This document shows, piece after piece, positions 8,101-31,133 of a stretch of 64,000 bases of DNA (position 1 is the first letter of the stretch; each line of letters starts with the position of its first letter). This stretch comes from Desulfuromonadaceae bacterium (lineage in GTDB: Bacteria; Desulfobacterota; Desulfuromonadia; Geobacterales; Pseudopelobacteraceae). The stretch covers positions 186,001 to 250,000 of the forward strand of contig JAQUIT010000001.1 in the NCBI GenBank assembly GCA_028681335.1, written 5' to 3'. The notes beneath the pieces are model-generated. The model did no database searches, had not been told where the DNA came from, and saw only the letters and a program-made list of their open reading frames with translations. Both the position numbers and the translations under genes were made by a program.

Positions 8101-8359
8101 TGATGAAGAACGTCGTGCGGCGGCACTCTGCTACAAACAGGGGTACTACGCTCCGGTTGTTGTTGCGCGCGGGAAGGGGGTTGTTGCGGAGGCAATTATT
8201 GCCTGCGCCCGTGAAGCCGGTGTGTATGTTCATGAGTCGCCGGAACTGGTCAAGTTGTTGATGCAGGTTGACAATGACCAGTTTATTCCTCCGGAGTTGT
8301 ACCGGGCAGTTGCGGAAGTGCTGGTGTGGCTGCAATGGATGGAAAATCAGCAGAAATAA
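8087..8359 (+). CDS. Stand-alone FlhB C-terminal-domain-like protein (FhlB/YlqH type)
   Basis: GYYAPVVVARGKGVVAEAIIACAREAGVYVHESPELVKLL...IPPELYRAVAEVLVWL matches the FlhB C-domain of this window (KMVAPVVLAKGMDIMAEAIKKIAREHSITLVENRFLARELY...IPEALYSAVAEVLAYVY). Confidence 0.85.
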   Translation: MSPGDDEERRAAALCYKQGYYAPVVVARGKGVVAEAIIACAREAGVYVHESPELVKLLMQVDNDQFIPPELYRAVAEVLVWLQWMENQQK

Positions 8360-29261: not shown

Positions 29262-30056
29262 ATGTTTCCGCTCCTCCCTTTTCCGTCCCCCCGTGAAGTC
29301 ATTTTTTTTATGCTGGTGTTAAGCCGTGTGGCGGGCATTTTTGCCGCGCTGCCTGTTTTTGGCGGACGCGTACTGCCGGTGCGCATCAAGGCGATAACGG
29401 TCTTCATGATTACGCTGGTCTGTTTTCCGACCCTCTCGATTATCGTGCCGCAGGTGCCTCCTGATGTTTTCAGTCTCGCTCTGCTGGCTTTCAGTGAAAT
29501 TATGATAGGGCTGACGCTGGGATTTATTACGCAAATCATTTTTGCGGCAGTTGAATTCAGTGGTCAGATCATCGGCATGCAGATGGGGCTCACCATCTCG
29601 TCAATCATTGATCCGTCCAGAGGCACGCAGGTACAGATAATGTCGGTTGTGCAGACGCTCTTTGCTACCTTGATATTCCTTTCTCTCAATATACATCACC
29701 TCTTTATCCGGGCAATCATGGACAGTTTCAGGGTAATTCCCTTGGGTGGGTGGCATATAAGTGGTGAACTGGTGCATTTTCTTGTCATGCGCACGGCAGA
29801 TATCTTCATTATCGGCATCCGCCTGGCCGCACCGGTCATGGTCGCCCTGCTCCTGACAACAGTAGCACTCGGTATCATGGCCCGTGCCTTCCCGCAGATG
29901 AATATCTTCATGATCAGTCTGCCGCTCAACGTCGGGCTGGGCATGGTAATTCTGGGCATGACACTGACTATCTTCTTCCATGTTCTGGAGGTCTCCTTCG
30001 GGCACCTCTCCGCTCAAATAAATGCACTCTTCCAGCTAATGGCAAAGGGGGGATGA
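29262..30056 (+). CDS. fliR: Flagellar export apparatus protein FliR
   Basis: SRVAGIFAALPVFGGRVLPVRIKAI...FITQIIFAAVEFSGQIIGMQMGLTISSIIDP. Confidence 0.97.
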   Translation: MFPLLPFPSPREVIFFMLVLSRVAGIFAALPVFGGRVLPVRIKAITVFMITLVCFPTLSIIVPQVPPDVFSLALLAFSEIMIGLTLGFITQIIFAAVEFSGQIIGMQMGLTISSIIDPSRGTQVQIMSVVQTLFATLIFLSLNIHHLFIRAIMDSFRVIPLGGWHISGELVHFLVMRTADIFIIGIRLAAPVMVALLLTTVALGIMARAFPQMNIFMISLPLNVGLGMVILGMTLTIFFHVLEVSFGHLSAQINALFQLMAKGG

Positions 30057-31133
30057 CCTACGGGCGAAAGTTCAGATAAGCACTCAAAAACAGAGCAACC
30101 GACCAGTAAGAGGCTGGAGAAATCACGCGAAGACAGTCCTCCGCCGATGAGCCAGATGCTGACGTCATCGCTTACCCTGCTCACCGGTATCGTCAGCCTC
30201 TACATCTTTGGCAGTTTCATGATGGATGGACTCAAACAGAGTACGATCAAGATACTATCGACACTTGGCACGTTTCAGTTTAATGAGTCAAACCTGTATG
30301 TTATGATCGTCAAGCTGTTTGGTACCGTCGTGCTGTTGCTGGCCCCTCTGGTCTTGACAATTATAGCCACTGCCGTATTGTCAAGTATCATACAGGACAA
30401 CGGTAGATTTGAATTCAGAACATCACGGCTGAAAGTAAGTTTCAGTAAACTCAACCCACTGAACGGTTTTGGGCGTCTGTTTAATAAAGATGCTCTGGTT
30501 GAAATGCTGAAGTCTCTTCTCAAACTATTGGTCGTCGCCTGGATCGCCTACGGGGTCGTGCGCGACGAAATGCAGAATATCACCTTTTTGGCCGAGGCTG
30601 ATATTCAGACAATCTTCAACTTCGTCGGTCACATCGCCTTCAAAATTGTTACCCATATCTGCGGTATTATGATTGTCCTTGGTCTGCTAGACATGCTCTA
30701 TGTCAAGTGGCGCTATACAGAAAACCTCAAAATGACCAAGCAGGAGATCAAGGACGAACATAAAGAATCAGATGGAAATCCCGAGTCAAAGAAGAAAGTA
30801 AAGAAAATGCAGTTCCAGATGGCACGTCGCCGCATGACCAAAATTATTCCGCTGGCCGACGTCGTTATCACTAACCCGACCCACTTTGCTGTGGCGCTGA
30901 AGTACGACCGGCAGAAGATGGTGGCGCCTGTCGTTCTTGCCAAAGGGATGGATATCATGGCCGAGGCGATAAAAAAGATCGCCCGTGAACATAGTATCAC
31001 CCTGGTTGAAAACAGATTCCTTGCCCGTGAGCTGTATGATCAGGTCAAGGAGAATGAACCGATACCGGAAGCACTCTACTCAGCCGTTGCCGAAGTGTTG
31101 GCGTATGTCTACAAATTAAAAGGTAGGGTGTAA
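30057..31133 (+). CDS. flhB: Flagellar export switch protein FlhB; N-terminus in frame with fliR and without a standard start codon (ORF track starts at 30147)
   Basis: From 30057: P T G E S S D K H S K T E Q P T S K R L E K S R E D S P P P M S Q M...; autocleavage motif NPTHFAVALKYD. Confidence 0.88.
   Translation, partial: PTGESSDKHSKTEQPTSKRLEKSREDSPPPMSQMLTSSLTLLTGIVSLYIFGSFMMDGLKQSTIKILSTLGTFQFNESNLYVMIVKLFGTVVLLLAPLVLTIIATAVLSSIIQDNGRFEFRTSRLKVSFSKLNPLNGFGRLFNKDALVEMLKSLLKLLVVAWIAYGVVRDEMQNITFLAEADIQTIFNFVGHIAFKIVTHICGIMIVLGLLDMLYVKWRYTENLKMTKQEIKDEHKESDGNPESKKKVKKMQFQMARRRMTKIIPLADVVITNPTHFAVALKYDRQKMVAPVVLAKGMDIMAEAIKKIAREHSITLVENRFLARELYDQVKENEPIPEALYSAVAEVLAYVYKLKGRV

Follow-up and report, generated by a model that had tools for sequence, protein, structure and literature searches.

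Conserved non-AUG start codons are a known feature of individual genes such as infC. In bacteria, starts other than AUG, GUG and UUG are known from few genes, and these mostly use AUU or AUA. In enterobacteria and staphylococci infC, which encodes IF3, has an AUU or AUA start and is translated at a low and regulated level. The flhB gene described here resembles this infC in its apparent conserved non-AUG start behind a Shine-Dalgarno (SD) sequence. However, infC is autoregulated via its own product IF3, whereas FlhB has no such role, and the codons at the flhB start position are ACG and CTG. Plastid genes with ACG starts are similar to flhB in that ACG replaces ATG at a conserved start; in plants this ACG is often edited to AUG, whereas we saw no sign of editing here. 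To our knowledge, no overlap with an upstream gene is known for pcnB of E. coli, which differs from flhB in its AUU start. The inefficient AUU start of pcnB was described to limit protein dosage (cited in PMC13009471). According to the same article, cvfC1 (AUU) and ccpN (AUA) of S. aureus have conserved starts with an extended SD, which were identified by ribosome profiling and give a lower yield (PMC13009471). Both genes share with flhB the conserved non-canonical start and the extended SD. They differ from it in their codons and in the kind of gene, in the proof by ribosome profiling and in that the passages on them do not describe the start as overlapping the stop codon of a preceding gene (PMC13009471).

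Similar results were obtained for infC in our own data set. In this genome and seven relatives infC has an apparent ATA start behind a strong SD of the AGGAGGTG type (L225:1486-1488 in this genome; also L232, L233 and L235-L239, with AGGGGGTG as the SD in L236), and no in-frame ATG, GTG or TTG was found upstream of the ATA in L225. Therefore, the pairing of a weak start with a strong SD occurs elsewhere in these genomes. For flhB we found no earlier report of a non-AUG start in the open literature, to which the search was limited. A clade-wide ACG or CTG start on flhB thus appears to be undescribed, although the kind of start is already known.

The window, i.e. the whole stretch of 64,000 nucleotides that was analyzed, is part of a 4.0-Mb genome and contains fliR and flhB next to each other on the forward strand. 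The fliR gene (29262-30056, 264 aa) is an open reading frame that matches the profile TIGR01400 with 207.6 bits (cut-off 168.6). It ends with ATG GCA AAG GGG GGA TGA, which encodes MAKGG-stop, and its TGA (30054-30056), conserved in the genus, lies in frame with flhB. Downstream of the TGA follow CCT ACG GGC GAA AGT TCA GAT AAG CAC TCA AAA ACA GAG, so that the fliR frame reads on past the stop as PTGESSDKHSKTEQPTSKRLEKSREDSPPPMSQM, the conserved N-terminus of FlhB. No ATG, GTG or TTG occurs in the flhB frame between this stop and 30147, where the first in-frame ATG (30147-30149) encodes an internal methionine of FlhB and where a gene finder would start. A further ATG at 30053-30055 overlaps the fliR stop, lies directly 3' of a run of G and opens another frame which reads MTYGRKFR*. 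The in-frame fliR stop, the encoded N-terminus and the two ATGs had already been described in a sequence-only reading of the locus, and the coordinates given there hold. That reading framed the locus as a missing start or a possible fusion, which the comparison with relatives does not support. Instead, flhB is very probably intact and translated from the non-canonical start codon ACG (30060-30062), as judged from comparative sequence data, giving a protein of 357 aa (30060-31133 including the stop). A weak start codon behind a strong ribosome-binding site would account for the start that seemed to be missing.

We compared the junction in 67 distinct flhB loci from eight genera of the family. 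These comprise 33 loci of the genus g1, which includes the window and is represented by uncultured Geobacteraceae or Desulfuromonadales MAGs, the loci of seven more genera and a contig assigned to G019 in binning which belongs near g10. The latter locus (L063, G019:C55) carries an flhB nearly identical to that of g10 and is probably a binning error, the contamination of G019 being 9%. Two loci, L198 (G105) and L080 (G002), were excluded from the 67, as a distant type of flhB with an ordinary ATG replaces the family type there by acquisition or contamination. Genomes of the same genus showed the same in-frame TGA followed by an open frame of 358 codons. The alignment with flhB of relatives, which the sequence-only reading had proposed as a check, revealed that the layout is repeated across the family and thus not due to chance.

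In all 67 loci the column of the ACG holds AUG or a near-cognate codon with one mismatch, and the final base is always G (CTG in 35 loci, ACG in 29, TTG in 2 and ATG in 1). If this were an ordinary threonine codon, the synonymous codons ACA, ACC and ACT would be expected as in the other columns of flhB with a threonine majority. None of the three was found at this position among the 67 family loci, while each of the other 19 such columns contained at least three synonymous codons. Third-position changes point in the same direction. On the family tree (length 16.4) the start column showed 0 changes, compared with a minimum of 5 and a median of 20 in 77 fourfold columns, and in the genus set none of 105 fourfold columns was free of changes (0/105). 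In L180 (G125) the start position of flhB is CTG. At the aligned place the remaining families of the order carry ATG, or GTG in L203 and L212; the aligned junction reads MSEADKHSKTEQPT in the outgroup locus L109 versus TADEDKHSKTEQPT in L026.

Five genomes of the genus with 92-100% completeness (G006, G028, G033, G034 and G035) yielded no flhB match, which may point to repeated loss of flagella. Besides, the window contains a second, short FlhB-like gene at 8117-8335 with an open frame of about 93 aa, as does the corresponding contig region of most relatives. It resembles the cytoplasmic C-terminus of FlhB (query residues 248-322).

The last codons of fliR serve also as the predicted ribosome-binding site of flhB. 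The end of fliR forms AAAGGGGGGAUGA, an extended SD (30045-30054) with a core run of G at 30047-30052, for which a duplex energy of -13.3 kcal/mol was predicted with the standard anti-SD, assumed here in place of the genome's own. A usable 16S 3' end was not found, the 16S matches in G000 being fragmentary and the pattern matches in relatives not being rRNA. The extended SD is present in all 67 loci with predicted energies of -11.2 to -16.9 kcal/mol against the same standard anti-SD, and the gap between the G-run and the start codon is 7 nt in 64 of them, a working distance for an SD. In the window only 4 of 37 genes have an SD at least as strong as -13.3, even with the best start allowed for each, and the median is -7.6. 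Moreover, the G-run is invariant in 35 of 35 rows despite lying partly on third codon positions. More distant Desulfobacterota (L113, L123) share the identical G-run at the end of fliR and the same gap, but have an ordinary ATG. The spacer codon CCT (30057-30059), which would remain untranslated, is found in 33 of 33 g1 loci, whereas sister genera vary freely there and even have TAA or TAG. If the base preceding a start codon is U, it can pair with A37 of the initiator tRNA, and this may help a weak codon. Such pairing would account for the T of CCT but not for the CC.

Alternatively, ribosomes could start at the ATG at 30053 and enter flhB by a programmed +1 frameshift. Most loci have this ATG, which shares bases with the fliR stop in the widespread ATGA arrangement. 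Nevertheless, it is replaced by GTG in L009, by CTG in L063 and L179 and by ATA in L188, and frameshifting from it fails because it is not conserved. In addition, it abuts the G-run and is too near for that SD, and the end of the short frame differs between species so that a fixed slippery site is absent. We therefore consider this route very unlikely.

One of four options raised by the sequence-only reading was readthrough of the fliR TGA, which would join FliR and FlhB in a protein of about 620 aa similar to the fusions of some Clostridium. The in-frame TGA speaks for it, as does the following C, since TGA followed by C is a leaky stop context. The same reading stated correctly that such fusions exist naturally in Clostridium and in engineered form (PMC7064499). 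In the clostridial fusion (NF009411) fliR and flhB are likewise adjacent and in one frame, but here a stop separates them and some relatives have two stops or a change of frame. A second in-frame stop lies directly ahead of the CTG in three g15 genomes (TGA-TAG-CTG in L187, TGA-TAA-CTG in L189 and L195), and in L188 the fliR stop lies in another frame than flhB. Both observations contradict a fusion by readthrough, which would also leave the restriction of the codon to CTG, ACG, TTG and ATG unexplained. The window holds no continuous FliR-FlhB frame because of the TGA, and the readthrough protein scored 436.2 against the fused family NF009411, below the cut-off of 739. The topology is unfavorable as well, as the C-terminus of FliR is periplasmic and the N-terminus of FlhB cytoplasmic (PMC7064499). 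An element for readthrough or selenocysteine insertion was rejected since no conserved structure was found downstream of the stop (RNAalifold 0 to -0.4 for the downstream windows of 35 loci). Taken together, a readthrough fusion is highly improbable.

Another explanation is a truncated FlhB that starts at the ATG at 30147 (MSQM...), the first canonical in-frame start and the likely call of a gene finder. The 28 codons upstream of this ATG, however, evolve as coding sequence. Codons 2-29, from the ACG to the first ATG, have a pN/pS of 0.150, and the remaining flhB also has 0.150. By this measure of purifying selection on the sequence, the N-terminus upstream of 30147 is very probably translated and is under the same constraint as the rest of the protein, and this includes its T-E-x-P-T motif. 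Moreover, most sister genera have Q, K, T or S instead of the methionine of ATG 30147, and the preceding CCTCCGCCG has no likeness to an SD. The 357-aa FlhB matches TIGR00328 with 368.0 bits (cut-off 349.25; profile positions 2-346 of 348), whereas the 328-aa form from 30147 reaches 339.2 and fails the cut-off. The match of FlhB to Pfam PF01312 amounts to 390 bits. Hence, there is hardly any room for a truncated FlhB.

A single C-to-U step would also suffice to turn ACG into AUG if the mRNA were edited before initiation as in plant organelles. The CTG and TTG of the relatives are beyond repair by such a step and we know of no bacterial system for C-to-U editing of start codons, which makes editing exceedingly improbable. 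Finally, the tidy ATG start that the removal of one base gives in this sequence alone could suggest an error of sequencing or assembly, or a frameshift mutation of recent origin. Both can practically be dismissed, as the same layout occurs in 33 independently assembled loci of the genus and in seven other genera, one complete genome included. Thus, among the options of the sequence-only reading, initiation at ACG 30060 is strongly supported, while the comparison with relatives contradicts readthrough, a frameshift mutation and a sequencing error.

For initiation at the ACG, the extended SD at the end of fliR would position the 30S subunit with the G-run 7 nt upstream of the codon. The normal initiator fMet-tRNA (CAU) would then read ACG with one mismatch, and methionine would be the first residue of FlhB. 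A variant initiator tRNA was rejected, as the only tRNA gene found with an initiator stem is a normal one that carries the anticodon CAT. Initiation of FlhB is probably coupled to termination of fliR because the initiation site of flhB overlaps the fliR stop. Reportedly, ACG initiated very poorly in the E. coli reporters of Hecht in 2017. The weak start probably limits FlhB.

Parsimony yields four changes of the start codon within the family. At its base the ATG still seen in other families would have changed to CTG, which most genera have. The genus g13 acquired TTG, ACG appeared at the base of g1, and within g1 one clade returned to CTG and one species (L008) has ATG. CTG and ACG are two bases apart, and therefore each passage between them leads via ATG or via CCG, which is not a start. 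The start codon seems to have traversed AUG without staying, and this lack of a lasting return to ATG hints at selection for a weak start. In L008, the sole species with ATG, the SD is the weakest of all (AATGGGGGG, -11.2), as would be expected, although this is one case only. The core of the export gate holds one FliR (FliP5Q4R1) (PMC7064499). FlhB joins this core with its one FliR, and dosage is a plausible reason for the weak start, which may be kept to hold FlhB low and matched to FliR.

Standard gene callers would clip 29 residues of FlhB at this locus, enough to fail the NCBIfam cut-off, and the clipped protein can yield false calls of a broken gene or of a fusion. The ACG through the genus and the CTG, or TTG in one case, through seven related genera represent a natural test series. 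This series could be used to examine how weak codons are made to work by SD strength, neighboring bases and IF3, and whether selection acts on start codons to set the dosage of subunits. We tentatively propose, as a possibility somewhat short of an even chance, that selection keeps flhB off AUG and that a strong extended SD together with a poor, IF3-sensitive start fixes the output of FlhB relative to FliR. If this were true, the identity of the start codon would determine the dosage of a component that is present as a single copy in the flagellar export gate.
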